NCBI GenBank assembly: GCA_948470755.1
Contig: CAOKPU010000025.1
Coordinates: forward strand, 1-39,244
Direction: 5' to 3'
DNA: 39,244 bases
DNA from: an uncultured Lachnospiraceae bacterium
Lineage (GTDB): Bacteria; Bacillota; Clostridia; Lachnospirales; Lachnospiraceae
Both the position numbers and the translations under genes were made by a program. Numbering within the stretch: the first letter of the stretch is position 1; every line of letters starts with the position of its first letter. The notes beneath the pieces were generated by a model. That model did no database searches, was not told where the DNA came from, and saw only the letters and a program-made list of their open reading frames with translations. Of the stretch, positions 8,398-32,931 are shown piece after piece.

Positions 8398-8496
8398 CAC
8401 CGAAAAATGCCGCATTTTGGGCATTCTCCTGCGTGAGACTTAGAACTTCTTCGCGAAGCAGCCTCTGCTGCGAGTGATTAGAAGTTCTTCTCACGC
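8398..8496. repeat. Palindromic repeat element, second copy
   Basis: A hairpin AATGCC...GGCATT at 8406-8434 is followed by a long imperfect hairpin at 8431-8496 with outer arms GCGTGAG/CTCACGC and an apical CAGC-ctct-GCTG. The 30 bases at 8441-8470 are identical to 4988-5017, and 8477-8494 differs from 5041-5058 at one base. The right end overlaps the stop codon of the SGNH gene by one base. It probably also serves as the 3' end of that operon. Confidence 0.8.
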
Positions 8497-9545: not shown

Positions 9546-9559
9546 TGTCTCTCACCCTT

Positions 9560-15029: not shown

Positions 15030-15158
15030 ATGCTAAACAATAAATATTATAACGAATTTATTGAATTAGGACAACAGAAAATTAACTTTAAATTTTACGA
15101 ATGGAAATTCAATGAATACTATCTACAAATCAGTTCCTTCTTCGATCCATTCCTTTAA
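15030..15158 (+). pseudogene. Short ORF, probable N-terminal remnant
   Basis: A 42-codon AT-rich ORF beginning MLNNKYYNEFIELGQQ. It overlaps the 3' end of the convergent nuclease gene by 36 bases. An extended -10 (TGTTATAAT) ends only six bases before the ATG, so a transcript would be leaderless, and no RBS is seen. An imperfect hairpin (AAGATGG/CCATCTT, 14971-15008) precedes it. The composition resembles the start of a transposase or another mobile-element protein, but I cannot name the family. It may not be expressed. Confidence 0.35.
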
Positions 15159-16220
15159 TTTCTTCTGTAATTCTTTCTTATCTGGCAAATACAATTTATA
15201 CTCCGAGGCATAAATATTGGCATCCTCCGGTAATGTTATTTCTACAAGAGTATCATCCTTTTCCTTGCATAGCAAAATGCCAACCGTTGGATTTTCCTCC
15301 GGCAGCTTCTCATACCTATCATAGTAATGCACATACATCAGCATCTGCCCCAAATCCTGATGCGTCAACTTATCAATTTTCAAGTCTATCAATACGTAGC
15401 ACCGTAGAAGTCTATTATAAAACACAAGATCCACATAATAGTTATCTTCATTGAATGTAAATCGCTTCTGCCTTGCTTCAAACAAATAACCTTTGCCCAA
15501 TTCCAACAAAAAATTTTGCAATTTATTGATAATTGCAGTTTCTAAATCAGATTCCACATATTTTGCTTTTTCATCTAACCCAAGAAATTCAAGCACCGTG
15601 GGCTGTTTCACAATATCCTGCGGTTTCGTGATAATATTGCCCTCAGATGCAAGTCGCATTACCTCGTCCTTTTCTCTACTCAAAGCCAATCTTTCATAAA
15701 GGCTTGAATTATATTGTCTTTGCAATGTCCGTATTCCCCACGCCCCATTTGTTGCTTCTATTTCATAAAATTTTCGTTCATTTTCGTCTTTAATGCGCAT
15801 CAGTTGAAGATAATGAGACCACGGCAGTGTGAACGGTGATTCTTTTTCAAAAAAACTAAACAGTGTTTCGGATTTTTCCACAGCAAATTTCCGAAACACT
15901 GTTTCGGAAATTCTATCCTGATATGTCAGGAAAAAGCGTCTGGCGTTCTCCAATGTGTCTACCGAAAACCCTCTTCCATACTGCTCAGTCAGAGCTTCCG
16001 AAAGTCTTTTAATCACTCGTTGGCCATACTTCGCTCTGCTTTCGCCTTGTTGCTGTTCTTCCACGATCCATCTTCCTATGGAATAAAATGTCATTAACTG
16101 AATGATGTTAATCTGCTTTGTCGTAATTCCTCTTGCATATTCAACTAAATCTATTGAATTTTTGCACAATTCATTCAATGATTTATCTTTATCTATTATT
16201 TCCGGTAAATCATTTTCCAT
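15123..16220 (-). CDS. YhcG/DUF1016 family PDDEXK nuclease
   Basis: A 365-residue protein with an N-terminal DUF1016 helical domain (about 20-180, with IQLMTFYSIGRWIVEEQQQG and YGRGFSVDTLENARRFF) and a C-terminal PD-(D/E)XK nuclease domain. The active-site candidates are Glu227, Asp264 in YYVDLVFYN and Asp279-x-Lys281 in VLIDLKIDKLTHQDLGQM; a D in place of E before the Lys is found in many relatives. It looks complete. The start has GGAGG seven bases upstream. Such genes often travel with type I restriction systems, and a specificity-subunit fragment lies 300 bases away. Its AT-rich composition differs from the glycan genes on both sides, which points to transfer. The role is unproven but defence-related is likely. 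Confidence 0.88.
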   Translation of the reverse strand: MENDLPEIIDKDKSLNELCKNSIDLVEYARGITTKQINIIQLMTFYSIGRWIVEEQQQGESRAKYGQRVIKRLSEALTEQYGRGFSVDTLENARRFFLTYQDRISETVFRKFAVEKSETLFSFFEKESPFTLPWSHYLQLMRIKDENERKFYEIEATNGAWGIRTLQRQYNSSLYERLALSREKDEVMRLASEGNIITKPQDIVKQPTVLEFLGLDEKAKYVESDLETAIINKLQNFLLELGKGYLFEARQKRFTFNEDNYYVDLVFYNRLLRCYVLIDLKIDKLTHQDLGQMLMYVHYYDRYEKLPEENPTVGILLCKEKDDTLVEITLPEDANIYASEYKLYLPDKKELQKKLKEWIEEGTDL

Positions 16221-18842: not shown

Positions 18843-20414
18843 TCAAGGCCATTGCGTTTTCCCAATCATGGAAAACATATTCTCCCCCTGCAGATAATAA
18901 GGCAAAAAACGGTTAAACAGGCTATAGGCAAATGCCGCCATTACATACCCTATAACGCCAAAACATAAGATCTTCCCAAGCGCCGGCCTCACCCATTCAA
19001 GCAGCAGGTACGCCTTCCGTATTCCCAAAGCAACCAGATACATAAACGGTACCAGCACCGGAAGAATATACCTTCCCTGAGGCTGGTATTCCCAAGTATA
19101 GGAATAATAAATGCTTAAACCGATCGTAATGGCGCAGAATAAGAACATACATATGTAAAAAGCAGCCTTCTCTTTTCCGCATCCTGCCCTTCTTTTCTTC
19201 TTTTCCTCCCTTTCCGTATACAGCCCTGTATTTCCATTCCTGTCATAGGATACAGCCCCTCGTCTTTTCCTATACGCTTCCCGCAGCCTGTCTATCGGGA
19301 AGAAGGCCATCGTGCAGGCTCCGGCCCATAGCCATTTATAACCAATATAGATCAATCCGTGAGTGGGAATCTTCATCGGCCCGAACATGGCGATAAAGCT
19401 ATCCCTAAGCAGCGTGATGTACCCTGTCTCGAACAACATCTCCCGGATGCTCTTGCCCGCCTTTTGAAAAGTAAACCTGAATAAAGGATTGTACTCCTCA
19501 ATGGACGTTACGATTGCGCACTCCCTTCTGGCTTTCATGGCAATGATATCCCCGTTATAAAGGATCGCATTCCTCCCAAACCACCAGCCGATCCCTAAGA
19601 GGACGACCAGGGAAATATAAAACCCTTTCCTAAGCAGAGGCTTCCATTCCACCGCAAGCCCTCTCCGGAAATGGACGAAATGGATAAAAAACAACAGGAT
19701 TGCCGCCAGGATGATCCCATATGCATTATAATAAGACATCGCGCAAAGGACGATCCCCACCGACAGCAAAAAACAACCCTTCTTATCATACCCGGCCCTC
19801 TGCGCCCTAAGAAGCACATAAAAGATCATGGCCACCGACAACATCGCCATAGAATCCGTATTGACATAAGAATGGATAAATATATTCTGGGGAAGGAAGA
19901 CGACAAGAACCGTAAACGTCCACTGGATATAGGGATTATCCCAGGCTTCTTTCGCCGTCTTCCTTACAAAATACGCCATAAGAGTCCCGAAAACAGCATT
20001 GACCGTTCTCGCCGCCAAAAGCAGGATGTATCCGTCCTCCGTAAACAGCTTCAGGAATCTTAGCAGGAACCCTTGGATAATATAAGTCAACATAGGCTGG
20101 AACGCATACGAAGCCCCATATCCATCCAAAAGCACTTCCGGATCCGCGCCATGGGGCAGCCTCCCATACTTACAGATATAATTGACTACCTTAAACCGAT
20201 TGATTTCATCCGGAGGATCCCCATAAGTCTGTACCATGGCAAAACACATGATCGATGCAAATACAAGAAGATAAAATACAGCTTCCGTCGCCATTTCCAG
20301 CCTCTTCCCGTTTTCTTCCCCCGGGCTTCTTTTTGCTTTCTTTGTCCTTCCCCCTCTTCCTTCTATCCCCGCCGCCGCCATCATCTTCCCCGGCAGTCCG
20401 GATGCTTCCAACAT
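18843..20414 (-). CDS. GT-C-fold-like polytopic membrane glycosyltransferase
   Basis: A membrane protein of about 523 residues with 10 or more predicted helices. The first outside loop carries TYGDPPDEINRFK, an acidic motif like the metal or base site of GT-C glycosyltransferases (PMT/ArnT and DUF2142-like). Such enzymes use polyprenyl-phosphate sugars outside the membrane. The start at 20414 (MLEASG) is preferred because AAAGGAGGAGG lies directly upstream; an upstream in-frame ATG would put that RBS inside the gene. A charged cytoplasmic N-tail of about 40 residues precedes the first helix. It lies between the radical SAM and another membrane protein gene. Substrate unknown. Confidence 0.8.
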   Translation of the reverse strand: MLEASGLPGKMMAAAGIEGRGGRTKKAKRSPGEENGKRLEMATEAVFYLLVFASIMCFAMVQTYGDPPDEINRFKVVNYICKYGRLPHGADPEVLLDGYGASYAFQPMLTYIIQGFLLRFLKLFTEDGYILLLAARTVNAVFGTLMAYFVRKTAKEAWDNPYIQWTFTVLVVFLPQNIFIHSYVNTDSMAMLSVAMIFYVLLRAQRAGYDKKGCFLLSVGIVLCAMSYYNAYGIILAAILLFFIHFVHFRRGLAVEWKPLLRKGFYISLVVLLGIGWWFGRNAILYNGDIIAMKARRECAIVTSIEEYNPLFRFTFQKAGKSIREMLFETGYITLLRDSFIAMFGPMKIPTHGLIYIGYKWLWAGACTMAFFPIDRLREAYRKRRGAVSYDRNGNTGLYTEREEKKKRRAGCGKEKAAFYICMFLFCAITIGLSIYYSYTWEYQPQGRYILPVLVPFMYLVALGIRKAYLLLEWVRPALGKILCFGVIGYVMAAFAYSLFNRFLPYYLQGENMFSMIGKTQWP

Positions 20415-20469
20415 TGCTCCTCCTCCTTTCCCCTTTTGCATACACATTTACCTCAGTTGCTTATTCCAT

Positions 20470-22239
20470 TTATGCCGCAGAATCTTGTCTCCGATACACA
20501 TACACCGCATAAGGCGCGCCTTCCCGCCCATAAGCCTTCACCAAATAAAAACCGGCCTCTTGCGCATTGCCGAATTCAAACCGGGAAAAAATATACACGC
20601 CTCCCAGATCCTCAAACGCCCGGGCATCCACATAAAGATCCCGATCCGTCACCGTAAAAGATTTGGATGAACTTACCGCAGAAAGATCCGTTCCCGGGTA
20701 AAGATACGCCCTCGCCCCCCAATTGTCATAATAAAGACGGCTTGCTTCCACCCGTTCCAGCGCCGGGGCAATGATTTTCCTGAAATCCTCCTTATACTGT
20801 TGGGGATAAAAACCCAGATACCCGTCCAATGTACATATCCCGTTGTATTCCAGTACAGCCGGATGGAATCCGTAAGCCGCCGACCACTCCCCCTGATAAC
20901 CGATGTCCTCCTTGATCCATGCAAACAAATCCTCAGAGTAGAATTCCCTATAATTCATTTCGTCGGTTTCCTTCCCCTTTAGCAACTCCAAGGCTTTGTT
21001 TTTACATGTAAAATACAGATCGTTATATCTGGAAGGGGTAAACAGGACGACCGCCATTGCTAAAAGCAACAATCCATAAACCGCCCGCCCAAGCAGGAAA
21101 CGCATCTTTCCCTTTTCCATCTTTAACACATAAGAATATACCCTTTGCAAGACTATAAAAAAGGCGCCGTACCAGAGAAACGGATTAAAAAATATCGTAC
21201 GGTTAAACTGGAACCCTTTTAACGGAGGCAGCAAAGTTTCCACCAGCCTGCGGAACGCCCCCCAGTTATAAACGCCGTATATCATACTGTTAAATGCCAG
21301 GACAAACATCAGCAAATTATAAATATCGGAAAACATGGATTTTATCTTTTTCCCGGCAATATATTTCCCATTCAGCCATATAAAATACGCCATACAGATC
21401 CACAAAACCAATTTTTCATGATCGCTCTGCGCATGAAACACGCCGTGCATCCACACATCCGCGCCCTGGGCCAGGATCTCCCCCGCCGTCAAATCCGCCT
21501 CCACCATCGTGGAACGGATGGTTTCCACCCCGCCAAACAACATCGTATAAAACAGGCGGTATTCAAAACAAACATAACCAAGGGCAAGCACACACAAGGC
21601 TCCCGCCAAAGATACCGGCATCTTCTTATCCCGGATGCCAATCCAGATCATCCCGGCAAAAAGATAAGCCAGGATAAAAAAACCAAAATAAGAAAAATAA
21701 GAAACAAAGGGATAACAGAATAACAGGATATACGGCCCGGCCGATGGTTTTCTGTAAATCCGCAGCAGCAAATATAACGCGAACGGGATAGAGGCAAAAG
21801 GGATCCCAAACGCCGGAAATACATTTAATATCCCGTAAACCAGCCCCATCAGCGCCGCTAACGGCCGATATTGCACCCATTCCGCGCCATACCATTCCTT
21901 TGCCAGAAGGCAGACGGAAACCACTGCCGTCACGACTTTTATCAAATATCCTATGATATATGCCGCAAAGGAAGGGAATAAGAAATAAAGCAACGTATAC
22001 AGGGATAGTTCGGAAGGAAGATTGTCCCTCGTGACCCCTCCCAAAAAAGGCACATCCACCCCGTGAGAAAAAAAAGAATCCGTATTTTTCAGCATCCGGA
22101 ACTGCGCCACAAATAAATCCAGATTATCATGTACCGCAATATGGCTGTTTTCCCCAAAAACAACATATACCGCCGATACAGACAGCAAAAAAAGCCCTAT
22201 GAAAACCCAATACCATTTATCGAATATTTTGTTCCTCAT
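20470..22239 (-). CDS. DUF6044/YfhO-like integral membrane protein
   Basis: A 589-residue protein with about 12 helices and an extracellular C-terminal domain of about 160 residues that includes YSEDLFAWIKEDIGYQGEW and YDNWGARAYLYPGTD. The first outside loop has HIAVHDNLDLFVAQFRML, the acidic motif seen in YfhO and DUF6044 proteins, which are linked to glycosylation of lipoteichoic acid or other surface polymers. The family name is from recall of the motif. It follows the next membrane protein gene after 58 bases and precedes the GT-C-like gene by 55, so one operon is likely. RBS GAGGAAGTAGG. Confidence 0.72.
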   Translation of the reverse strand: MRNKIFDKWYWVFIGLFLLSVSAVYVVFGENSHIAVHDNLDLFVAQFRMLKNTDSFFSHGVDVPFLGGVTRDNLPSELSLYTLLYFLFPSFAAYIIGYLIKVVTAVVSVCLLAKEWYGAEWVQYRPLAALMGLVYGILNVFPAFGIPFASIPFALYLLLRIYRKPSAGPYILLFCYPFVSYFSYFGFFILAYLFAGMIWIGIRDKKMPVSLAGALCVLALGYVCFEYRLFYTMLFGGVETIRSTMVEADLTAGEILAQGADVWMHGVFHAQSDHEKLVLWICMAYFIWLNGKYIAGKKIKSMFSDIYNLLMFVLAFNSMIYGVYNWGAFRRLVETLLPPLKGFQFNRTIFFNPFLWYGAFFIVLQRVYSYVLKMEKGKMRFLLGRAVYGLLLLAMAVVLFTPSRYNDLYFTCKNKALELLKGKETDEMNYREFYSEDLFAWIKEDIGYQGEWSAAYGFHPAVLEYNGICTLDGYLGFYPQQYKEDFRKIIAPALERVEASRLYYDNWGARAYLYPGTDLSAVSSSKSFTVTDRDLYVDARAFEDLGGVYIFSRFEFGNAQEAGFYLVKAYGREGAPYAVYVYRRQDSAA

Positions 22240-22297: not shown

Positions 22298-23704
22298 TCA
22301 TCCTCTTTCTTTCCACGCCTTCCTATCCTTCAGCCAATCATAAACCAGCATGGAAAGCGCCGTATAGAACAAGCCCATGCTGTAAATCATATAACGGGGC
22401 TGACAGAAAATCATAGCGCCTACTACTACCGCATTTACCGCAATGCCCCCCAGCACGATTTCCGCCATCGCCATGCTCCTATCCCGCCCAAGCCACCGTT
22501 TCTTTTTCCATGCGCCATAAATATAAAGCCCGATATAGAGAAGATATGCCGCAACTGCATAAATATTTAAATACCGGTTGACCCTTGCGATGGAATTGAC
22601 AAACCCCTTCCATAGGTTCGATACATAAACTCTTGCCAAATCCCCCTTTTCCTGCCCGAGCAGCGTCCTGACCATGGCGCCGCAATATCTGTCGTATTGT
22701 AAGACCGCCTCAATCGCCGTATATTCGTAGTTCTCCGCAATATACCCCTGGATAACCGGGTTGATAATGCCATAACCGATGGCGTCATAACTATCCGCAT
22801 AGTGAGAGGACAGCTCCACCCACCCCTGCGGCGCATAAGTTATCTTAAGTCCCTGCCTGTCCGCTTCCGCCGAGATTTCTTCATACAATCCCCTTAAGAC
22901 CTCATCTTCAAACAAATCGGCGTCTTCTTCCCCCGCCGTATAGATCAGTGTACAGAGCATTCCCATAGAATTGCCGGAATGCTCGATCCAGGCGCCCCTG
23001 ACGCAGTAATTATAAAGCCTGTCCGTAAACCGGCATGCGCCAAAAATCCCCGCCGTCATCAAAAGCAAAAGGAGCAGCTTTTTCCCCTTCCTTTCCTTTA
23101 TCAGTTCATACAAGATAAAAACGGCCGCCATCAGGCAAAGGGTTACCAGCATCTGTTTTCTCAAATTAACTAATAAAAATGCAAAAAAAGCCGTTCCCGC
23201 CAGATTTTTCATTTTCTGTCCCAATACATATTTATATAGCTGCACAATAAACAGCACATACAAAGAAAGCCCCAGCCCTTCCGTCATAATACTGTCAATA
23301 TAGGAAGACCCCCTCACCGCCACAAAGCGGCACAAAAAAGTCACTCCAAACTGGAAGGCGACCGAAAGCAGGGCAAGAAGCCTGCTCCCGTCCTTATACT
23401 CCTTTACCGTAACCGCCAGCTTCCACGTGGCATAGGCCGCAAGGACGCTCTGGGCGATCACCACCGGCATCAAATACCCTTCCTCCCCGAAGAGCTGCCT
23501 GAACAGCCATAAAAACGTAGGATAAAGCGGCTCCCTTGTAATATTCATAGTCGCATAGCTCGGCGAATCCTTGCACCAGACCGGCCCGTCATAAAACGGA
23601 AAAAAGAGATAAAAGCCCAATGCCGCGGCAAATAAGCAGATATCCCATCGTTTCCGGCTTTTTTCTGTTTTTTTCCTACCATCCTTATTCATCCACATCA
23701 TCAT
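22298..23704 (-). CDS. GT-C-like polytopic membrane protein
   Basis: A 468-residue protein with about nine or ten helices. The first extracytoplasmic loop reads KDSPSYATMNITREPLYPTFL, where Asp/Tyr and REPLYP recall the first loop of GT-C-type glycosyltransferases. The start region ATG-ATG-ATG overlaps the end of the upstream GT2 gene by 20 bases, so translation of the two is probably coupled. This pairing fits the known division of labour: a GT2 enzyme makes a polyprenyl-phosphate sugar and a GT-C-like protein uses it outside. The acceptor is not known. Confidence 0.75.
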   Translation of the reverse strand: MMMWMNKDGRKKTEKSRKRWDICLFAAALGFYLFFPFYDGPVWCKDSPSYATMNITREPLYPTFLWLFRQLFGEEGYLMPVVIAQSVLAAYATWKLAVTVKEYKDGSRLLALLSVAFQFGVTFLCRFVAVRGSSYIDSIMTEGLGLSLYVLFIVQLYKYVLGQKMKNLAGTAFFAFLLVNLRKQMLVTLCLMAAVFILYELIKERKGKKLLLLLLMTAGIFGACRFTDRLYNYCVRGAWIEHSGNSMGMLCTLIYTAGEEDADLFEDEVLRGLYEEISAEADRQGLKITYAPQGWVELSSHYADSYDAIGYGIINPVIQGYIAENYEYTAIEAVLQYDRYCGAMVRTLLGQEKGDLARVYVSNLWKGFVNSIARVNRYLNIYAVAAYLLYIGLYIYGAWKKKRWLGRDRSMAMAEIVLGGIAVNAVVVGAMIFCQPRYMIYSMGLFYTALSMLVYDWLKDRKAWKERG

Positions 23705-24629
23705 GCTCTTTCCGCTCTTGAATCATATTCAGCCGGAATTCAAAATCCCTCCGGTTCTTCAACGCCATATTTGACAATATCAACCCCGAAAAGAAAGATT
23801 GTATCGCGGCCAACATCACAAAACCGCATACAAATAAAGTCGGGAATTTATCCACCATCCCCGTCCTTACAAAATCAATCAGGACCGGTATAAAGAAAAT
23901 AATGGACACCGCCGCCAAAAGCACGGCCAGCATCGTAAAAAAGCCGAGCGGCTTATAATCTTTATACAGCCTGCCTATGGTACCCAGCACCTTAATCCCG
24001 TCCGAATAAGTATTTAACTTCGATTCGCTGCCTTCCGGCCTGTCCCTGTAATCCACGATCACATTCTCTATCTGCATATTATTGGACACCGCATGAATGG
24101 TCATCTCCGTCTCTATCTCAAACCCCTTGGACAATACCGGGAACGTCTTCACAAAACCATAGCTGAAAGCCCGGTAGCCAGTCATAATGTCTTTAATATC
24201 GCAGCCAAACAGCCTGTTGATGCTCCCCCTTACCAGGCTGTTGCCCAGATTATGGAAAGGCCTTTTATTTTCCGTAAAATAAGTGGAGGACAACCGGTCG
24301 CCCACTACCATATCCGCATTATGGCGCAGGACCTTGTCCACCATCCCGGCCGCATATTCCATCGGATAAGTATCGTCGCCGTCCACCATCACATAGCACT
24401 CCGCCTGGATCTCCCGGAACATACGGCGGATCACGTTCCCCTTCCCCTGCATGTATTCATTCCTCACCACCGCCCCGGCTTCCGCCGCCAGTTCGGCGGT
24501 CCTATCGCTCGAATTATTATTATACACATAAACTACCGCGTCCGGCAGGGCCTTCCTTGCATCGGCCACTACCTTTGCGATCGTCTTTTCCTCATTATAA
24601 CATGGTATTAAAACTGCAATCTTATCCAT
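23685..24629 (-). CDS. GT2 glycosyltransferase, DPM1/GtrB-like, with C-terminal membrane helices
   Basis: A 314-residue enzyme predicted to make polyprenyl-phosphate-linked sugar at the inner face of the membrane. The GT-A domain begins MDKIAVLIPCYNEEKTIA; the metal and nucleotide site is VDGDDTYP (Asp83, Asp85, Asp86). A DIMTGYRAFSYGF segment and EIETEMTIHA follow, as in DPM1-type enzymes. Two C-terminal helices (LGFFTMLAVLLAAVSIIFFI and FVCGFVMLAAIQSFFSGLIL) anchor it. Start codons at 24629 and 24641 both have possible RBS sites; 24629 fits the family N-terminus better. It is the first gene of the unit and has a promoter at 24702-24730. Confidence 0.9.
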   Translation of the reverse strand: MDKIAVLIPCYNEEKTIAKVVADARKALPDAVVYVYNNNSSDRTAELAAEAGAVVRNEYMQGKGNVIRRMFREIQAECYVMVDGDDTYPMEYAAGMVDKVLRHNADMVVGDRLSSTYFTENKRPFHNLGNSLVRGSINRLFGCDIKDIMTGYRAFSYGFVKTFPVLSKGFEIETEMTIHAVSNNMQIENVIVDYRDRPEGSESKLNTYSDGIKVLGTIGRLYKDYKPLGFFTMLAVLLAAVSIIFFIPVLIDFVRTGMVDKFPTLFVCGFVMLAAIQSFFSGLILSNMALKNRRDFEFRLNMIQERKEHDDVDE

Positions 24630-24701
24630 CTTTCCTCTCATTCTGCCTCAGGCCGCCCCTTGCGCCCGGGCATTTATGCTCTTATGTTCATCATAACCTA
24701 T

Positions 24702-24838: not shown

Positions 24839-26374
24839 TCAGAATCCCTGATAGATAAATTCCGCCGCGCTGTAGCCCGGGCCGTAATATCCTAACAATA
24901 TGGTGTAAAACAGCAGGGCGTACCAAATCATGAAGCGGATAGGAAGCTTCTTTTTCTCTATCCTTTCACGGACAGCCCCCTTTTGCTGAAGGAGGGATAC
25001 CGTCAGCAATATAAGCAAAGACACTATAGCGATCACGGCCTCGATCACATCCAGCCCCAGAGTGAACAAAGAGCCGTTAAACAATACTTCCGGGTTCCAT
25101 ACGCTTACCCCCGCTTTCAGCATCCGGAACGCATCCGGTGCCGAAGAAGCCCGAAAGAATACAAATCCGATATTCGCAAGAAAAAACGTACGCAGAATGC
25201 GGAAAGCATCCAGCCATCTGCTCTTTGGGTCAATGGAAAGCCGTTCCATCATTTTTTTAAAAAAGGGATCCGCCAGCTCGCCGGAAACAATATAAAACCA
25301 ATGAAGCAGGCCGGAGCCTATGACAAATTTCCAGTCCCCTCCATGCCATACGCCAACCGCAAACCAAAGCAGGAACATAGCCAGAAACGTCGTCAGTTGT
25401 TTCCCTTTCTTTTTCCCGAACCTGCCCCGCAGCTTCTTCCCCAGCTTTTGAAAGGCGTCCGTGCGCAGCAAAGGATAAAACACATATTCCTTCATCCATA
25501 CCCCCAGTGTGATATGCCATCTGCGCCAGTATTCGGAAATATTCCTGGAAAAAAACGGCGTTTCAAAGTTTTCCGGCAGATGGATCCCAAAAGTCTGGGA
25601 CATGCCCAGGACGATATCCATGGAGCCGGAGAAATTAGTATAAAGCTGAAACGCATAACATACCGTGGCTATCCATATATAAGAGCCCGGATACTGCGTA
25701 TAATTGTCATATACCGTATTTACTACCAGATTCATCCGTTCCGATATGACGAGTATTTTAAAAAACCCCCATACCATCCGCTGCAGGCCGAAAGTAACCT
25801 GACGGTAATCAAACGGATGGGGCCGGAAAAACTGCTCCCCGTCTTCCCGATACCGGAGGATCGGCCCGGATAAAACGGAAGGGAAATACATGCCATACAA
25901 AGACAATTTCAGGAAATTCATCTGCGGCGCGGCTATCTGATTGTACACATCTACGATATAACCAAGAATGGAAAACGTATAAAAAGAAATCCCCAGCGGT
26001 ACCAGGAATTGGAACCCCTTCCATACCGCCCCCTGCGCCCCGCATAAGGAAGCGATCCCATTTACCGTATGGACGCCAAAGTTTATATACTTTAATACAA
26101 CCAATGTACCGATTAACAGGACCAGGGAAACGCACAACGCCCGTTTCCGCCTTTTCCCATCCTGCGTCCCCGCCATTATGCGGATCGCCCCATAAGCGAT
26201 AGCCGAAGCGGCAATGGGGTATAAGATTAAGATCCCGTTTCCGGTCAGCATATAATAACCGATACTGGCAGATAGCAAAAAAAACCATTGCGTTTTTGCA
26301 GGAATCAGATAATATATAAGTAATATACATGCATAAAAACACAAAAAATAAAAGGATGTAAAGGTTGCCGGCAT
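24839..26374 (-). CDS. MBOAT family O-acyltransferase, second copy
   Basis: A 511-residue polytopic acyltransferase of the AlgI/DltB class. His344 in GVWHGGDWKF is the predicted catalytic His. Other hallmarks are LVPLGISFYTFSILGYIVD, LYTNFSGSMDIVLG and ISEYWRRWHITLGVWMKEYV. Unlike the other two MBOAT genes in the window it has no adjacent membrane-anchored SGNH partner. Instead it is next to VOC, acyl carrier protein and FkbH-like genes. That makes it the best candidate to accept an acyl group from the carrier protein, as DltB does from DltC; this is inference. Its start is 53 bases from the divergent VOC gene. Confidence 0.92.
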   Translation of the reverse strand: MPATFTSFYFLCFYACILLIYYLIPAKTQWFFLLSASIGYYMLTGNGILILYPIAASAIAYGAIRIMAGTQDGKRRKRALCVSLVLLIGTLVVLKYINFGVHTVNGIASLCGAQGAVWKGFQFLVPLGISFYTFSILGYIVDVYNQIAAPQMNFLKLSLYGMYFPSVLSGPILRYREDGEQFFRPHPFDYRQVTFGLQRMVWGFFKILVISERMNLVVNTVYDNYTQYPGSYIWIATVCYAFQLYTNFSGSMDIVLGMSQTFGIHLPENFETPFFSRNISEYWRRWHITLGVWMKEYVFYPLLRTDAFQKLGKKLRGRFGKKKGKQLTTFLAMFLLWFAVGVWHGGDWKFVIGSGLLHWFYIVSGELADPFFKKMMERLSIDPKSRWLDAFRILRTFFLANIGFVFFRASSAPDAFRMLKAGVSVWNPEVLFNGSLFTLGLDVIEAVIAIVSLLILLTVSLLQQKGAVRERIEKKKLPIRFMIWYALLFYTILLGYYGPGYSAAEFIYQGF

Positions 26375-26427
26375 AAAACAGATCCTTTCCTTAAACCAAT
26401 CACCGTAATAATATCCGGAGGATAATT

Positions 26428-26832
26428 ATGATATCTTTAAAAATCCATCACATTGGATATCTGGTAAAAAAAATGAAAAAAGCGGCGGAGGGATTCGAGC
26501 GTCTTGGATATACCGCTTCTTCCGACGTCATCCACGACGATAATCGGAAGATCCATATCCTCTTTATGGAAAAAGACGGTTACCGCATAGAGCTGGTTTC
26601 CCCCTCCGATGAGCAGTCCGTCGTCGCGGGGCTTTTAAAAAAATATAAAAACAGCCCCTATCATATATGCTATGAAACGCCCGATTTTGATGCGGATTTT
26701 GATTCGCTGTCCAAAAAAGGCTTCACAGCGATCGACGTTCCCGCGCCCGCCCCGGCCTTTCAGGGAAGACGCGTCGTATTCCTTATGAGCCCTGCTTTAG
26801 GGATGATCGAACTGCTGGAATCTAATCCTTGA
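26428..26832 (+). CDS. VOC family protein (glyoxalase/epimerase-like)
   Basis: A 134-residue vicinal-oxygen-chelate protein, one full two-module domain, similar in size and motifs to methylmalonyl-CoA epimerase. Likely metal ligands are His7 or His8 (KIHHIGYLV), Glu55 (RIELVSP), His79 (SPYHICYE) and Glu128 (MIELLE). The RBS CCGGAGG is six to seven bases from the ATG. It lies on the opposite strand to its neighbours, diverges from MBOAT and overlaps the acyl carrier protein gene tail to tail by 11 bases. An action on the carrier-bound or free acyl group, such as epimerisation, is plausible given the company but is not shown. Confidence 0.85.
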   Translation: MISLKIHHIGYLVKKMKKAAEGFERLGYTASSDVIHDDNRKIHILFMEKDGYRIELVSPSDEQSVVAGLLKKYKNSPYHICYETPDFDADFDSLSKKGFTAIDVPAPAPAFQGRRVVFLMSPALGMIELLESNP

Positions 26833-27067
26833 TCTGGCTCATGATGATATCCGCCATTTCCCCCACATTTTTCATGGTGACTACCTGTCCCATGGAGAAC
26901 TTTATTCCGAATTCCTGCTCCACCGCGGCAATCAGGTTAATATGCTCCAAAGAATCCCAGTCCTCGATATCATCCGCAGTCGTCCCTTCCCCCACAGTAA
27001 TCGACTCATCATCGAATACATCCTGGAATACTCCGTTCAATGTTGCAAATACCTCTTCTCTCGTCAT
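26822..27067 (-). CDS. Acyl carrier protein
   Basis: An 81-residue carrier protein, standard ACP size. Ser39 in EDWDSLEHINL is the site for the 4'-phosphopantetheine arm. The W-D-S-L form is more like specialised carrier proteins (DltC and polyketide or FkbH-linked carriers) than the fatty-acid ACP, which has a DSL in a different setting. It is the second gene after the FkbH-like gene on the same strand, 59 bases away. It probably carries the acyl group made by that enzyme. Confidence 0.92.
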   Translation of the reverse strand: MTREEVFATLNGVFQDVFDDESITVGEGTTADDIEDWDSLEHINLIAAVEQEFGIKFSMGQVVTMKNVGEMADIIMSQIKD

Positions 27068-27126
27068 CTTTTTTTCCTCGCTTCTTTAAATATTTTATGA
27101 AAACATTTTATTGAATCATTTCAATG

Positions 27127-28920
27127 CTATCTTTCTATGATTTCTATATATCTGTTTTTCTTCTCATAATGCTTTGGGATATCATAAACCCATACCGTGT
27201 TCCCGTTTTCATCCTCTTCGGCCTTAGCAAACCCCTGTAGCCCATAAAAGTTTTCCACCATACGGTTCTTGGCGGTAGGGTAATAATAACCTGTTATTGC
27301 GGCTATCCCCGCTTTCCCGCATTCTTCCACCAGCCTGTCCATCATGGCGTATTCCATATCCCTTTTCAGCACCCGGCAGCTCATGATCCATAAATCAATA
27401 TGAAGCGTCTTCTCTTTCTTTTCCCCGATCACAACGGACACGACCCCGTTATCCCCGAATCTGTCCTCCAGCTTCCCGTACAAAGTGATATGATCCGGGG
27501 AAGCCGCCGTCTGCTCGATCTCGCTTTGGGTATATCTTCTGGTCGTCAAGTTAAACTGGTTGCTCTTATTGGTCAACTGGGCGATCCTTGCCATATAAAC
27601 CGGCTCAAAGGATCTGACTATCCCTTTCATCTTGAGCGATTTCAAGTATTCGCCGTAATCGGCAAACCCGGCCTGCTGTTTCTCCCTCATAAGATTGGCT
27701 TTATACATATCGCTGCGTTTCTTATCATCCTCTGAAAGGCTGGTCACCTCAAAGAAACCGGAACGGTCTAAAATATGGATATATTGTTCCGGCCTGCCGA
27801 TCTCCGGAACCGCCGCCCCCGGAAACTGCATCCTTACAATTTCCCGTTCCGCCGGATTGTCGTCCACAAATACAAGGCTTTCCGGCAATATATTCAATTC
27901 CGCGGCGATATCCGCCATATTCTTGCTTTTAGGCTCCCAATTGGCTTTGATCAGAATGAAATCTTCCGGCTTTAGGATCCCCGCCGGATGGTTCAATCCC
28001 GCAAGGGCGTTTTCTTCCTCATTCTTGGAATTCACATTCAGCATAACGCCGATATCCTTATGCTCTTTTATATATGCCTGGAATTCCGCATAGACCTGTC
28101 CCATGGAAGTCTCTTGCCCAATCTCTATATTTTCCGCCCCATCATCGCCCACAATGCCGCCCCAAAGCGTATTGTCCAGATCGAGTACAAGCGCTTTCTT
28201 ATTTTTTCCGAACACCGCTTTGATCATATTGCATAAGTTGTATGAGAATTCCGGGATCGCCTGCATACACAGACAATATTTGTACATATGCCAATAAAAA
28301 GGATCGGCCCACTTATCCAAACCATAAGCCGATGAAATATAATTAATATCGTGGATATAAAAATTCCCATGGGATTCCGCATGCTGATAAAACCGCTCAT
28401 TCAGCCTCGTCAGAAAACGGATCCGCCCATTTACGCCGACCGCGTCACGATTCCCCAGCAGGCGGTAAAACGGATACTCAAAATTATTCTGTATCACCGG
28501 GCAATGATAGGTTCCCTCCAGCTTGTCCCACATGGATGAAAAATGGGCGTACTGCTCTTCCAGCATAGCTTCCACTGTCTCCGCGTTATCTCCCGGCGCC
28601 GGATAGGAAGCGATGTTCCTGCTGCTGGTATGGATATAAATAAGATCCGGGGCAAACGCATCCAATTCGGGATTTCCAAACATAGCATCCTGAAAATACT
28701 GCCCATACTCCGATTCGTAAAACTCCGGCTCGATCCCCTGATGCAGAAGAAAGATTTCCAGGATACGGACAATATCATGGGTGGTGCTTCCGCCCAGCAC
28801 TGCGATCTTCTTCTTTATGCGCCCTATATCCTGCCCGGACAGGATGCGTTTTAACTTTCTTGCATTTTTTAATATATAATCACTGTCAAAAGGATATTCC
28901 AATTCTTTCAATCTTATCAT
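27127..28920 (-). CDS. FkbH-like HAD-IIIC protein with N-terminal SGNH-like and C-terminal GNAT-like domains
   Basis: A cytoplasmic protein of about 597 residues. Residues 1-220 look like a Rossmann/SGNH-like domain (KIAVLGGSTTHD). The HAD domain covers about 240-390: nucleophile Asp247 and Asp249 in VLDLDNTLWGG, Lys in ILIKANWEPKS, and Asp353/Asp354 in LVFVDDNPAERE. The last 160 residues resemble the GNAT-like part of FkbH, with Cys515 in WIMSCRVLKRD. FkbH proteins are known to take the three-carbon unit of 1,3-bisphosphoglycerate, remove phosphate and load glycerate on a carrier protein. The neighbouring carrier protein gene fits this. The ATG at 28920 is chosen because the earlier in-frame start lies inside a terminator; TTG at 28911 is also possible. 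Confidence 0.88.
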   Translation of the reverse strand: MIRLKELEYPFDSDYILKNARKLKRILSGQDIGRIKKKIAVLGGSTTHDIVRILEIFLLHQGIEPEFYESEYGQYFQDAMFGNPELDAFAPDLIYIHTSSRNIASYPAPGDNAETVEAMLEEQYAHFSSMWDKLEGTYHCPVIQNNFEYPFYRLLGNRDAVGVNGRIRFLTRLNERFYQHAESHGNFYIHDINYISSAYGLDKWADPFYWHMYKYCLCMQAIPEFSYNLCNMIKAVFGKNKKALVLDLDNTLWGGIVGDDGAENIEIGQETSMGQVYAEFQAYIKEHKDIGVMLNVNSKNEEENALAGLNHPAGILKPEDFILIKANWEPKSKNMADIAAELNILPESLVFVDDNPAEREIVRMQFPGAAVPEIGRPEQYIHILDRSGFFEVTSLSEDDKKRSDMYKANLMREKQQAGFADYGEYLKSLKMKGIVRSFEPVYMARIAQLTNKSNQFNLTTRRYTQSEIEQTAASPDHITLYGKLEDRFGDNGVVSVVIGEKKEKTLHIDLWIMSCRVLKRDMEYAMMDRLVEECGKAGIAAITGYYYPTAKNRMVENFYGLQGFAKAEEDENGNTVWVYDIPKHYEKKNRYIEIIER

Positions 28921-28941
28921 TCTCCATTCTGCAACGGTTAA

Positions 28942-28965
28942 AAGCGGATGCCAAAACATCCGCTT
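28942..28965 (-). terminator. Intrinsic terminator of the SGNH lipoprotein gene
   Basis: On the minus strand a perfect 9-bp stem AAGCGGATG/CATCCGCTT with a 6-nt loop is followed by TT of a TTTT run. It lies between the lipoprotein stop (29001) and the FkbH start (28920). A TAAAAT lies just upstream of the hairpin, so a promoter for the FkbH gene could overlap it. Confidence 0.65.
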
Positions 28966-29000: not shown

Positions 29001-30077
29001 TTAATTATTTTTTGTAGACTCGTATTCCAGGATAACCTGCGATAATTTCTCCGCATATTTCCGTCTTCCTTTTTCCGCAAGATGAATACCGTCCTCAAGA
29101 TACTCGCTGGCCGAATACGTATCCAGCCCAATCCCTTCGTAGGCGTTCAGGAACAGCGTATGCATATCCGCCGACACATTGCCGCATACCCTGTAGTATT
29201 CCACCAGCTTGCCGCCTCCATTGCTGACCATGTTGCCGTCCCCTAAGTAGGAACCGTCTTTTCCCCAGAACTGGGCGTAGTTAGGCGAACATAATACTAT
29301 GGCGGCGTCCGGGAAAGAAGTCCTTAACCTTTGTATGGCAATACGCAAAGCTCCCACATACGTATATTCGTCATAAAAGTCATCCTCGTCATTTAACGGT
29401 ATCCCGCTTAAAAAGTCATTCATCCCATATTCAATGACAAAATAATCCGTCTTGGAAAAATCGCAACTGGCAAACACTTCCCCGGCCCGGTGGCCGTCCA
29501 TGATCCCTGGGCCTACTTCCCCGCAAATCGCGTGGACGACCCCTTGCAGCGACCGGGAATCCCATTCCTCATAGGAAGCATTTTCATAAGTCGTCAAAGC
29601 GGCCGTCGTCCCCCCCATCGCCAGGTTATACACATCCGCATTGCAGTATTCCCCTGTCAGATAAGCAATGCCCGTTTCGTTCCTGTACCCGTCCAGGATA
29701 CTGTCGCCTAAAAATACGATCTGCAGCTTATTTTCATCCCTGGTTTCCGGGATCTTCTCCGTCATTGCCGCTTCCCCGATCTGAGGTTCCTGCAGTTCCT
29801 CCGGATTTACAGTCACTTCTTCCGGCTGCCCCGCCTCCTCCTCTTGCCCTGTTTCCGGCTGATTCGCCTCTTGCCCCTCCGATCCCTTCGTCTGGGCGGT
29901 TGCATTCTCCATATTCATCTCTTCCGTTGCCCAGGGGATTTCATTGATCACGATCGCATCCCCCGACATATCCGCAGCGTCAGGGATTTCTTCCTTTACG
30001 TCTTTCGCCTCTTTCCCGCATCCCATCATCAATACCGCAGAAAAAACAAGAGCGGCGGCCACATGTAATTTTTTCAT
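29001..30077 (-). CDS. SGNH/GDSL lipoprotein with long acidic linker
   Basis: A 358-residue surface lipoprotein. The signal peptide MKKLHVAAALVFSAVLMMGC gives the lipidated Cys20. A linker of about 95 residues (22-118) is rich in Glu, Gln, Pro and Ala and probably spans the cell wall. The SGNH domain follows: VFLGDSILDG with Ser126, NLAMGGTT, YGMNDFLSG with Asn, and DGIH with Asp329 and His332. The start at 30077 has GGAGGG five bases upstream; the frame is open for 47 more codons upstream but these read through a hairpin-rich leader. It likely edits acyl groups on the surface glycan. It is monocistronic, with a terminator at 28942-28965 and a promoter near 30306. Confidence 0.88.
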   Translation of the reverse strand: MKKLHVAAALVFSAVLMMGCGKEAKDVKEEIPDAADMSGDAIVINEIPWATEEMNMENATAQTKGSEGQEANQPETGQEEEAGQPEEVTVNPEELQEPQIGEAAMTEKIPETRDENKLQIVFLGDSILDGYRNETGIAYLTGEYCNADVYNLAMGGTTAALTTYENASYEEWDSRSLQGVVHAICGEVGPGIMDGHRAGEVFASCDFSKTDYFVIEYGMNDFLSGIPLNDEDDFYDEYTYVGALRIAIQRLRTSFPDAAIVLCSPNYAQFWGKDGSYLGDGNMVSNGGGKLVEYYRVCGNVSADMHTLFLNAYEGIGLDTYSASEYLEDGIHLAEKGRRKYAEKLSQVILEYESTKNN

Positions 30078-30116
30078 AATTCCCTCCATTTCTGCGCTTC
30101 TTGTTGCGCATAATGA

Positions 30117-30175
30117 GTTTGTGTCTGCGCGGCTTTTATGCACAGCAAGTTTGTGGATGCCGCGCGGACACAAAC
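30117..30175 (-). repeat. Leader hairpin with 17-bp arms
   Basis: GTTTGTGTCTGCGCGGC (30117-30133) pairs with 30159-30175 at 16 of 17 positions, with a 25-nt loop. It lies about 40 bases upstream of the lipoprotein start, within its predicted leader. A third AAGTTTGTGG sits in the loop (30147-30156) and a related CAAACTTGTGTC lies at 30285-30296. It may be an attenuator-like structure or a set of operators. Confidence 0.6.
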
Positions 30176-30305
30176 TTGCAGATTGTCGCTTCCTATGAAG
30201 CCAACGGCCCCGCAGCATCCGTCAAATATAAACATCTGCCCGGCTCATTGCCTGCGGGAATAAAAATTCTACTTGCATATTTGTCAAACTTGTGTCTATA
30301 TTTCA

Positions 30306-30402: not shown

Positions 30403-30429
30403 TTGTCCTTGAAAGAATAGAGGTTGTTT

Positions 30430-31899
30430 ATGATATTTAATTCTATGGCATTTGCCATATTTTTACCAATCGTGTTTATTTTATACTGGGTTTTCCCGCA
30501 TAAATACCGTTATCTTTTCCTTTTAGCGGCCAGTTTTTATTTCTATATGTATATGGACGTAAGGTATTTGTTTTTCCTTTCAGGCACCTGCGTCCTCTCC
30601 TTTTTTCTCGGCCTTGCCCTTCAACGGGCAAAGACCCCCTCTTCCAAAAAAATATTCCTTTTTACAGGTGTGCTGATCCTGGCAGGCGTCCTGATCCTGC
30701 TCAAATATCTGGGCTTTTTTCTGGGACTTACGGGCCTGCCCTCCCCTGCTATACAGTTTATGCTGCCCGTAGGGATTTCATTCTACACCTTCCAGACATT
30801 AGGATATCTAATCGATATTTATAGGGGAAAGTATCCTGCGGAGCGTCATTTCGGCTATTATTGCCTATTTGTCTCCTTTTTCCCCCATCTTCTTTCCGGC
30901 CCCATCGGCCGGGGGGATCTTTTGCTTCCCCAGTTTAAAAAAGTACGTTCCTTCGACTCTTCCAAGGCCGCCTATGGAGTCAAATTAATGACGGTCGGTT
31001 ATTTTAAAAAGCTTGTGGTAGCAGGCCTTCTCACTCCTACGGTAGATGCGGTATATAACAACCCCGAGAATTATATCGGCTTAGTTTACATCATTGCCAC
31101 CGTTATGTTTGCCTTGCAGATCTATTGTGATTTTTCCGGCTATTCGGATATTGCCGCAGGCTGCGCCAAGCTTTTTGGCATAGATCTGACGGAGAATTTC
31201 AAGACTCCTTACTTTTCCCGCAGCATCAGGGAATTCTGGGGGCGGTGGCATATTTCCCTTTCCGGATGGTTCCGGGATTACGTATACATCCCCTTAGGCG
31301 GCAACCGCGTCTGCATGTTCCGCCATTGCCTCAACTTAATGCTGACTTTCCTTATCAGCGGCCTATGGCATGGGGCAGGGCTGACTTATCTTGTCTGGGG
31401 AGGCATCCACGGCTTTTATCAGATCATAGAGGCATGCTTTCAAAGAGCAGGAAACTCTGCGCGTACACGGCTGCAGATACAGCATACGCCTTCCTCCGAC
31501 GCAGGGCAGACAGGTAAACACAGCAGGATAAAAAACATGTTTTCCACATTCCTTACTTTTTTGGCCGTATGCTTCGCCTGGGTATTTTTTCGCGCCAATA
31601 GCTTGAGCGACGCCTGGAGAATCATTTCTCTTAGTTTGTATGGGATAAATGACTTTGACAATTATTTAAAAACCGCCATTATCTGCCTCGATCAATCCTA
31701 TAGTTATCTGATTTATTTATGCATCCCCATCTTCCTTTTGATGCTTTACGATTACGCCTCCTTAAAAACCGACGTCATCGCTTATCTTTCTTCCAGAAAG
31801 GCCGGGGTACGCTATTGCGTATACGTTCTTTTCCTGCTCGCCATATTATTATTTTCAGAGAAAGGAGTATCAACTGAATTTTACTATTTTCAGTTTTGA
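30430..31899 (+). CDS. MBOAT family O-acyltransferase, third copy
   Basis: A polytopic acyltransferase of about 489 residues of the AlgI/DltB class. His314 in SGLWHGAGLTY is the predicted catalytic His; LPVGISFYTFQTLGYLID, YCDFSGYSDIAAG and FWGRWHISLSGWFRDYVYIPLGG are family marks. The ATG at 30430 has AGAGG six bases upstream; a TTG six bases earlier is possible. It is followed after 12 bases by its SGNH-like partner gene, forming a two-gene plus-strand unit inserted between minus-strand glycan genes. The acyl group and acceptor are unknown; acetyl is the common case. Confidence 0.94.
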   Translation: MIFNSMAFAIFLPIVFILYWVFPHKYRYLFLLAASFYFYMYMDVRYLFFLSGTCVLSFFLGLALQRAKTPSSKKIFLFTGVLILAGVLILLKYLGFFLGLTGLPSPAIQFMLPVGISFYTFQTLGYLIDIYRGKYPAERHFGYYCLFVSFFPHLLSGPIGRGDLLLPQFKKVRSFDSSKAAYGVKLMTVGYFKKLVVAGLLTPTVDAVYNNPENYIGLVYIIATVMFALQIYCDFSGYSDIAAGCAKLFGIDLTENFKTPYFSRSIREFWGRWHISLSGWFRDYVYIPLGGNRVCMFRHCLNLMLTFLISGLWHGAGLTYLVWGGIHGFYQIIEACFQRAGNSARTRLQIQHTPSSDAGQTGKHSRIKNMFSTFLTFLAVCFAWVFFRANSLSDAWRIISLSLYGINDFDNYLKTAIICLDQSYSYLIYLCIPIFLLMLYDYASLKTDVIAYLSSRKAGVRYCVYVLFLLAILLFSEKGVSTEFYYFQF

Positions 31900-31911
31900 G
31901 CCACCGACGAT

Positions 31912-32931
31912 ATGAAACAAATTTTTATATTTATCTCCAAATGTCTTTTGGTATGCGCAGGCGCATTGCTCCTGCTCTTAATTTTAAATTACCGATATGA
32001 GCAGGTGCGGGAAAATCCTTACGCCGATGCGGATAAATTCAACTACATGAATTCCACTTATACGGACATCCAAATCTGCAATATCGGAAGTTCCCATGGG
32101 GAGTATGCTTTTTACTACGACGCCCTCTCCAAGATGCAAGGATATGAATGCTTTAATTTCGCTATGGCCAGCCAGACCTATGATTATGATTATGCCATTC
32201 TTTCCATGTATCAGAAGCACTTTTCAGAACAATGCTTTATGTTCATCCCGGTTTCTTACTTTTCATTTAACAATGAAGTTACCGATGAAAATGAGCAGCA
32301 ATTTTTAAGTTCCAAATATTATACGTTTTTATCGCCCAAGTACATTCCGGGCTACAACCCTTATGTGGATCTCATCACCCACTATTTTCCCATCCTATCC
32401 GCCGGCGAGGATATGGGCAAGCTTTTCCCTTCGTTGTCCTTATCCGTATTAGCGGCGCAAAAAGCGGATGAGGCTGCGGACCCTGCCAAAGAATCTCAAT
32501 TCCGGGAGAAAGCCCTCAACCGGTATCACCGCCATATGGACGGAAAAGAGAATTATTTTCTTCCGGAGCGGATAGACAACCTCTACGCCATCCTGGACTT
32601 TTGCAAACAGAACGATATCACGGCCGTCCTCATCACCACCCCTTATACCGGCTATTATTCCAGTTTATTTTCCCCGGAATTCAAAGCGGGATTTTCCGAT
32701 ATAGTGGACAGCATTGCAAGGGATACCGGCGTACCTTATTACGACTACTCCGCAGATCCCCGTTTTTCCAATTCCCTGGAATATTTTTCCGACGCCGATC
32801 ATTTGAACACGGAGGGAGCCGCCCTCTTTACCGGGATCATAGAAAAAGAAATCCCTGAATTCCAGGAATTTCTTTCCAATGTAGCTCCCAACGGCAAAGA
32901 ACTGGTACCGGGATGGAAACCGTCTTTTTAG
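31912..32931 (+). CDS. Membrane-anchored SGNH-like MBOAT partner (DltD-like)
   Basis: A 339-residue protein with one N-terminal helix (about 4-26) and an external domain. GSSHGEYAF (Ser60/Ser61) and DADHLNTEG (Asp294, His297) are the ends of an SGNH-type site. It shares layout, but little sequence, with the protein at 8496-9545, so the two MBOAT pairs are not a recent duplication. It is cotranscribed with the MBOAT gene before it. No clear RBS is seen, so translation may be coupled. It ends nine bases from the convergent aminotransferase gene, with no room for a terminator between. Confidence 0.8.
   Translation: MKQIFIFISKCLLVCAGALLLLLILNYRYEQVRENPYADADKFNYMNSTYTDIQICNIGSSHGEYAFYYDALSKMQGYECFNFAMASQTYDYDYAILSMYQKHFSEQCFMFIPVSYFSFNNEVTDENEQQFLSSKYYTFLSPKYIPGYNPYVDLITHYFPILSAGEDMGKLFPSLSLSVLAAQKADEAADPAKESQFREKALNRYHRHMDGKENYFLPERIDNLYAILDFCKQNDITAVLITTPYTGYYSSLFSPEFKAGFSDIVDSIARDTGVPYYDYSADPRFSNSLEYFSDADHLNTEGAALFTGIIEKEIPEFQEFLSNVAPNGKELVPGWKPSF

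Follow-up and report, generated by a model that had tools for sequence, protein, structure and literature searches.

A candidate carrier-fed MBOAT-SGNH surface acylation locus with an FkbH-type loader in an uncultured Lachnospiraceae bacterium

Gene set and proposed pathway

In a 39,244-nucleotide stretch of DNA from an uncultured Lachnospiraceae bacterium (assembly GCA_948470755.1, contig CAOKPU010000025.1, positions 1 to 39,244; the window hereafter), we found a locus that is likely to encode a carrier-fed system for acylation of the cell surface. In it, a membrane-bound O-acyltransferase (MBOAT) paired with an SGNH lipoprotein would combine a Dlt-like carrier, a built-in acyl shuttle like that of PatA and a glycerate-derived acyl group loaded by FkbH, and would thereby represent a third kind of MBOAT-SGNH acylation. 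The genes concerned are those of the MBOAT (511 amino acids, 24839-26374, minus strand; PF03062, with His287 and the catalytic His344), an acyl carrier protein (ACP; 81 amino acids, 26822-27067, minus strand; PF00550, with Ser39 in WDSLEH), an FkbH-type HAD-IIIC glyceryl-transferase-like protein (610 amino acids, 27127-28959, minus strand; TIGR01686 and PF21211) and, just upstream of FkbH, an SGNH/GDSL lipoprotein (29001-30218, minus strand; PF13472, 44 bits), the proposed final acyltransferase. An optional member is a VOC-fold protein (26428-26832, plus strand; PF13669, Glyoxalase_4, 67 bits), whose gene overlaps the ACP gene by 11 bases, 3' end to 3' end on opposite strands. An earlier sequence-only reading of this DNA had reported adjacent FkbH, ACP, VOC and MBOAT genes, and all four lie where it had placed them, although it overlooked the opposite strand of VOC and omitted the SGNH lipoprotein. 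The residues it named are also present, namely Ser39, His344 and the FkbH residues Asp247 and Cys515, which are D260 and C528 when counted from the longer start (the likely start is Met14, at 28920, in agreement with that reading).

The sequences themselves show which genes are present, how they are conserved, their motifs, and the MBOAT insert with its link to carrier genes; the catalytic steps, the docking, the acyl group, the acceptor and the role of VOC are inferred. FkbH would charge the phosphopantetheine arm of the ACP with a three-carbon acid (glycerate, taken from 1,3-bisphosphoglycerate). In some lineages VOC would then process the ACP-bound acyl group, and in others a MaoC-type dehydratase plus an SDR reductase would act in its stead. 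The acidic ACP would dock at the basic insert, which would face the cytoplasm, and His344 of the MBOAT would carry the acyl group across the membrane to Tyr508 of the enzyme's own C-terminal FIYQGF, and the SGNH lipoprotein would move it from Tyr508 to a surface glycan, perhaps the product of neighboring membrane glycosyltransferases. The linkage to a carrier argues for the ACP, and not acyl-CoA, as the donor of the MBOAT.

FkbH scores 290 bits against TIGR01686 (cut-off, 146.65) and consists of FkbH_N, a HAD domain and a C-terminal domain bearing Cys528; PDB entry 3slr matches the N-terminal and HAD part. What had been described as an extra N-terminal SGNH-like domain is the ordinary FkbH_N (PF21211, 34.8 bits; cut-off, 27), found also in the other FkbH of the same genome. 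D260, D262 and C528, which we take to be the catalytic residues, are invariant in 27 aligned FkbH proteins. In the FkbH family, the three-carbon acid is glycerate drawn from 1,3-bisphosphoglycerate. Judging from what is known of the family, the protein most likely loads a glycerate-type acid on the ACP here as well. Loading of such an acid on an ACP by FkbH is described in PMC7489565 and PMC3679948, the former giving 1,3-bisphosphoglycerate as the proposed source (e.g., for Mad7/Mad8 and Mad14/Mad12). The ACP of the window has a net charge of -14, and its Ser39 is invariant in nine aligned ACPs; general ACP models of NCBIfam fall below their cut-offs, and no DltC model is among the matches listed. 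The SGNH lipoprotein matches GDSL families in Pfam and nothing in NCBIfam, with no DltD listed; its lipobox LMMGC and its GDS...DGIH motifs were assigned by eye. A second FkbH and ACP pair is found on another contig of the genome (C13; L044, 8739-10779), its FkbH being 38% identical, in a cluster with an apparent CMP-sugar (cytidine monophosphate-sugar) synthetase, recognized by eye, and no MBOAT was found over the 20 kb read; this pair possibly supplies an acyl group for a nonulosonate sugar.

The MBOAT insert and its link to carrier genes

The MBOAT exceeds the PF03062 cut-off, its His344 is invariant in 45 aligned MBOATs and the sole solved structures matched by its profile are those of DltB (6bug and 8jem). 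It was rejected as a DltB equivalog (TIGR04091, 140.7 bits; cut-off, 375), and likeness to DltB by score was discarded as evidence, since all nine MBOATs matched in the genome score 134 to 175 bits on the DltB model (one of them, L127, as a partial protein). Two mechanistic features had gone unnoticed in the sequence-only reading. The first is the C-terminal FIYQGF (24842-24859, minus strand) within a terminal EFIYQGF, which agrees with FxYxxF, given in PMC12148441 as the acyl-shuttle motif of DltX and PatA; Tyr508 is the proposed site of the acyl-tyrosine. The second is an insert of 17 residues (approximately residues 303-319, LRTDAFQKLGKKLRGRF; 25418-25468, minus strand), so that the two histidines are 57 residues apart, whereas both other MBOATs in the window have a spacing of 40. 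According to PMC11035591, DltC contacts DltB at the horizontal helix HC, part of the loop that precedes the helix bearing the catalytic His336. We propose that the insert, placed at the position of HC by sequence alignment alone, is the carrier dock.

Conservation of the FkbH-ACP-VOC-MBOAT neighborhood, as searched across genomes, holds in the genus and in relatives. FkbH was found in all 16 searched genomes of the genus, the source genome included (21 of 61 genomes overall). Among the 15 genus relatives read, ACP is present in 15, MBOAT in 14 (in the fifteenth, the contig ends before it), the SGNH lipoprotein in 13 and VOC in 12, and the order SGNH, FkbH, ACP, VOC, MBOAT, GT2 glycosyltransferase is largely retained; the SGNH gene is displaced in L036, and the genome behind L040 is divergent. 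VOC is optional, since two of the three genus genomes lacking it keep the remaining set (L033 and L037).

A scan of named genomes was then considered through the best 80 of 356 loci encoding a relative, some of them from the same genus. ACP lies within 6 kb of FkbH in 76 of the 80 (75 by open reading frame call, plus L081 by reading) and within 700 bases on the same strand in 69; an MBOAT is found within 9 kb in 75, and a long-insert MBOAT in 69. An SGNH-type gene (the lipoprotein, or cluster c1 or c15) occurs within 6 kb in 62 loci, where both clusters were named by eye, c1 having only a weak GDSL match and c15 none. The distance between the two histidines falls into two groups, 55 to 59 residues (69 MBOATs) and 40 residues (37 MBOATs), with three unmeasured by the script, one of which (L096) has a spacing of 40 by alignment. 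The terminal FxYxxF is found in 69/69 long-insert and 35/37 short MBOATs and thus marks the MBOAT-SGNH mechanism and not the carrier. Proximity to the carrier, on the other hand, separates them: an ACP is encoded on the same strand no more than 1 kb away from 37 of the 69 long MBOATs, but from none of the 37 short ones. In the four loci lacking an ACP, the genome has one elsewhere, directly beside a long-insert MBOAT (4/4), from which we conclude that the carrier remains with the MBOAT when FkbH leaves.

As the linkage of long inserts and ACPs in these loci could be a matter of mere descent, a sample of the phylum was drawn blind to FkbH. It comprised 101 genomes, source included, of which 27 have MBOATs; 32 MBOATs outside the source genome were read together with flanks of about 4 kb, as far as the contigs extended. 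A carrier gene was present near 4/4 MBOATs with a spacing of 47 to 57 versus 0/28 with a spacing of 37 to 41 (Fisher test, 2.8e-5), a count of zero that depends on our judging by eye as noncarriers the small open reading frames that also matched the carrier motif in eight short rows (L200, L208, L211, L215, L218, L219, L220 and L223). Three of the four, with a spacing of 57, adjoin the carrier gene directly; the remaining one is a DltB with a spacing of 47, whose carrier is 3 kb away in a dlt operon. The first ACP profile missed the DltC of L221 and the divergent carriers of L224, L225 and L226, all recovered by reading open reading frames and by motif; Pfam confirmed the carriers of L225 and L221 and gave no match for L224, and that of L226 stands by motif and reading. 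The three directly adjoining pairs (L224, 3659-8186; L225, 575-5095; L226, 3419-7561) have an adenylation protein nearby instead of FkbH, and no FkbH over the cut-off was found in their genomes. L224 and L225 also encode a pyridoxal phosphate enzyme of the ornithine/diaminopimelate decarboxylase-alanine racemase fold. Two long-insert MBOATs found later (L310, 725-2574; L311, 677-2571) have a carrier-like gene directly upstream, recognized by motif in both and also by a weak profile match in L310.

In a sample of the class, FkbH occurs in 31 of 245 genomes, the source included, giving 45 rows, of which 36 were read (two belong to the source genome, six are giant frames of polyketide synthase or nonribosomal peptide synthetase size and one is below the cut-off). 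An ACP and an MBOAT lie near FkbH in every one of the 11 loci whose FkbH is closest, and seven of these MBOATs have the long insert; of the 25 other loci, 3 have an MBOAT, short in each case. The enrichment (11/11 versus 3/25; Fisher test, 6.1e-7) was set aside as partly circular, since the profile had been built mostly from MBOAT loci.

Two plasmid searches matched 116 and 120 records, and the regions of 12 were opened (the Rm41 and Subdoligranulum records carry no annotation in the stretch). On pSymB of Sinorhizobium meliloti ml46, the genes for VOC, MBOAT, an SGNH candidate, ACP and FkbH are consecutive, and an FkbH at least 95% identical to this one is present in 39 plasmid records. The order is ACP, FkbH, MBOAT, SGNH candidate, VOC in Rhodobacteraceae SC52 and MBOAT, ACP, FkbH in Tistrella. 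The SGNH candidates of S. meliloti, Rhodobacteraceae and Tistrella have no Pfam support and were named by eye from short motifs; in an S. meliloti pSymB (L155, 3996-5225; U8C34_13475), a gene annotated as a TonB-dependent receptor has short motifs resembling those of an SGNH partner for the FkbH-MBOAT cassette and no Pfam match. Paroceanicella has ACP, FkbH, a methyltransferase and VOC. No annotated MBOAT was found in the stretches opened from Paroceanicella, Niveispirillum, Maritalea, Erwinia, Pseudalkalibacillus, Methylosinus and Streptomyces W1SF4, nor a clear one in that of Subdoligranulum; the FkbH-ACP pair of Niveispirillum comes with an SDR and an acetyltransferase of the WcbI type. Ketosynthase III accompanies FkbH and a carrier in three plasmid stretches, and in these no MBOAT is annotated within about 5 kb.

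In a tree of the MBOATs, the principal clade of long-insert proteins (32 rows, SH-aLRT 99) stands apart from DltB, from the Sinorhizobium-Rhodobacteraceae pair (inserts of 13) and from a small group containing L106 and L132, a pattern suggesting that the insert originated several times; the tree was a quick one, in which 17 of 53 inner branches lack support and DltB and Tistrella are on long branches. The window MBOAT clusters with short-spacing MBOATs of its own genome and not with DltB. L132 is the other long-insert MBOAT of the source genome (contig C11, 34080); its gene has an AlgX-like neighbor in what resembles a capsule locus, and a C-terminal FIYFQF is encoded in a different frame from the rest of the gene. 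The two short-spacing (40) MBOATs of the window belong to two further neighborhoods (30424-32931, plus strand, and 8496-11086, minus strand), one continuing with a weak DltD/DUF1574-like protein and the other with a protein without a convincing family.

Tailoring genes and competing explanations

VOC columns H8, E55, H79 and E128, presumably metal ligands, are common to seven aligned VOCs of FkbH loci from two phyla. The closest PDB relatives (2qh0 and 3hdp) are called lactoylglutathione lyase or glyoxalase I, and the protein falls below the cut-off of the methylmalonyl-CoA epimerase equivalog (TIGR03081, 53.5 bits; cut-off, 114.95). Because of the FkbH neighborhoods, the natural substrate of this VOC group may be an ACP-bound acid. 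Within 6 kb, the 80 loci contain VOC (38), MaoC dehydratase (18), SDR (15) and split transketolase (5), families named from one representative per cluster. VOC and MaoC never occur together (0/80; flat Fisher test, 1.1e-6). The flat count looks strong, but on the FkbH tree this exclusion reduces to about eight independent contrasts, never in the same direction, and is no more than suggestive (median sign-test p, 0.06). VOC and MaoC (with SDR) may be alternative ways of remodeling the acid on the carrier. On paper, dehydration and reduction of glyceryl-ACP would yield lactyl-ACP.

A carrier-fed MBOAT has to be weighed against another arrangement, in which FkbH-ACP, with or without VOC, would be a portable module that supplies glyceryl-ACP to a different enzyme (for instance, a nucleotide-sugar N-acyltransferase), and the neighboring MBOAT would be an ordinary O-acetyltransferase that modifies the same glycan from acetyl-CoA. 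Several observations weigh against our proposal, and some of them fit this arrangement directly. VOC stands beside FkbH and ACP with no MBOAT in the stretch read in L263, L268 and Paroceanicella, and in L274 it accompanies FkbH-ACP with a short MBOAT upstream, cases without a long-insert MBOAT; they suggest a role of VOC tied to the ACP-bound acid and not to the MBOAT, and an FkbH-ACP pair able to feed other enzymes. The Niveispirillum pair with its acetyltransferase and SDR and the MBOAT-free second pair on contig C13 of the source genome point the same way. The MBOAT is short in four of the 11 closest class-sample loci (L274, L275, L278 and L279) and in the less close L265; of these five genomes, three have no long-insert MBOAT and two pair a long one with a different carrier. 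In L080, L086, L096 and L097, which are the four loci without a linked ACP, FkbH abuts or overlaps a short MBOAT (spacing of 40), which speaks for some flexibility. In all, 11 of the 80 loci lack a measurable long-insert MBOAT: these four, L113 and L121 (the contig ends within the MBOAT) and five with no MBOAT within 9 kb; for two of these five, L062 and L070, the reading extended to 10 kb in each direction. The net charge between the two histidines (means of +8.2 in the 69 long and +3.4 in the 37 short MBOATs, and +9 in that of the window) is a weak test, since a longer segment carries more charges and one short window MBOAT reaches +7. Beside the long-insert MBOAT of contig C11, no carrier was found in the 40 kb read with an ACP profile that misses divergent carriers. 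Against a portable supply, the ACP keeps with the long-insert MBOAT after FkbH has moved off (4/4), the insert tracks carrier genes even where FkbH is absent and only long MBOATs are found close to an ACP on the same strand (37/69 versus 0/37), so that we regard this arrangement as rather unlikely.

If the carrier route is accepted, the acyl group could still be other than glycerate, either because this FkbH clade loads another acid or because VOC or other tailoring enzymes give, for instance, an epimerized or lactyl-like group. The varied tailoring genes of the 80 loci, with VOC and MaoC never together, and the eight or so tree contrasts speak for this. Neither gene is within 6 kb in 24 of the 80 loci, implying that the untailored product is often usable, and the FkbH domain is well over its family cut-off with the conserved Asp and Cys kept; a different acyl group is a serious possibility, though not the one that we favor. 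A true D-alanine Dlt system whose DltA has been lost or is distant would fit the fact that the MBOAT profile's only solved relatives are DltB, and the genome does encode two adenylation proteins scoring 294 and 279 bits on the DltA model. These are below the DltA cut-off of 560 and on other contigs, the linked loader is FkbH and not DltA, the quick tree groups the MBOAT with short-spacing MBOATs of its genome and not with the long-branched DltB and the models listed for the ACP and the SGNH lipoprotein include neither DltC nor DltD. We consider this explanation highly improbable. The Dlt-like logic with FkbH replacing DltA, as put forward in the sequence-only reading, passes the neighborhood comparison and is well supported in the sense of "works like"; the MBOAT is no DltB equivalog, and the system is not a member of Dlt.

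Relation to known systems and neighboring genes

The proposed carrier-fed pathway resembles Dlt in having a small carrier beside the MBOAT, an SGNH protein in the locus and additional residues between the two histidines of the MBOAT, in the region to which DltC binds on DltB (PMC11035591). It differs in the loader, FkbH instead of an adenylation enzyme (DltA), in that no Dlt model reaches its cut-off here and in that the window MBOAT carries FxYxxF itself, so that DltX should not be needed. With PatA/PatB it shares an SGNH partner and an MBOAT whose C-terminus itself provides the FxYxxF tyrosine (PMC12148441). MBOAT-SGNH pathways other than Dlt, PatA/PatB-type systems among them, are presented in that paper as using acyl-CoA as the donor without a carrier protein, whereas a dedicated carrier and loader are linked here and the MBOAT has a carrier-side insert. 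The tetronate and methoxymalonyl pathways also combine FkbH with a stand-alone ACP, but in the window the two are accompanied by an MBOAT, with no ketosynthase III or polyketide synthase alongside. The systems of L224-L226 (perhaps also L310 and L311) look like sisters, with a long-insert MBOAT directly beside the carrier gene, but L224-L226 would be adenylation loaded, given the adenylation protein nearby, and their genomes have no FkbH over the cut-off.

Among the matches listed in the open-licence literature, we found no FkbH-MBOAT surface pathway, and the two papers naming FkbH and MBOAT together concern cyanobacterial peptides. As far as this literature shows, the combination of carrier feeding with a built-in shuttle is new within MBOAT-SGNH acylation. 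Glyceric acid is described in PMC6972965 as a backbone part of the lipoteichoic acid of Clostridium difficile, which we take to be a different linkage. A broader reading, to which we give somewhat less than even credence, is that of a third MBOAT-SGNH class with interchangeable loaders (FkbH or an adenylation enzyme), remodeling on the carrier, export by a long-insert MBOAT with a built-in shuttle and repeated evolution of docking through insertions at one and the same MBOAT position; its products might be glyceroyl, epimeric glyceroyl or lactoyl groups, for example, made by VOC or by MaoC plus SDR depending on the lineage. If our proposal is true, carrier-fed surface acylation would be more diverse than the published picture and would count among the core traits of the Lachnospiraceae genus to which Kineothrix belongs and of many relatives. 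Acids would pass directly from glycolysis to the cell surface, and the segment between the two histidines would be a sequence mark separating carrier-fed from CoA-fed MBOATs.

A scan of promoters and terminators gave counts within one standard deviation of those in shuffled sequences. Downstream of the MBOAT are four conserved neighbors, all on the minus strand. The GT2 glycosyltransferase (23685-24641; PF00535, 68 bits; C-terminal membrane helices by eye) may help in making the acceptor. The other three, classified with Pfam, are a membrane protein without a family (22298-23704), a DUF6044 membrane protein (20470-22239) and a PMT/DUF2142 membrane protein (18843-20447), all three together being a possible GT-C part of the acceptor pathway. 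The surface-glycan locus is adjoined by a gene for a YhcG-type PDDEXK nuclease (15123-16220, minus strand).

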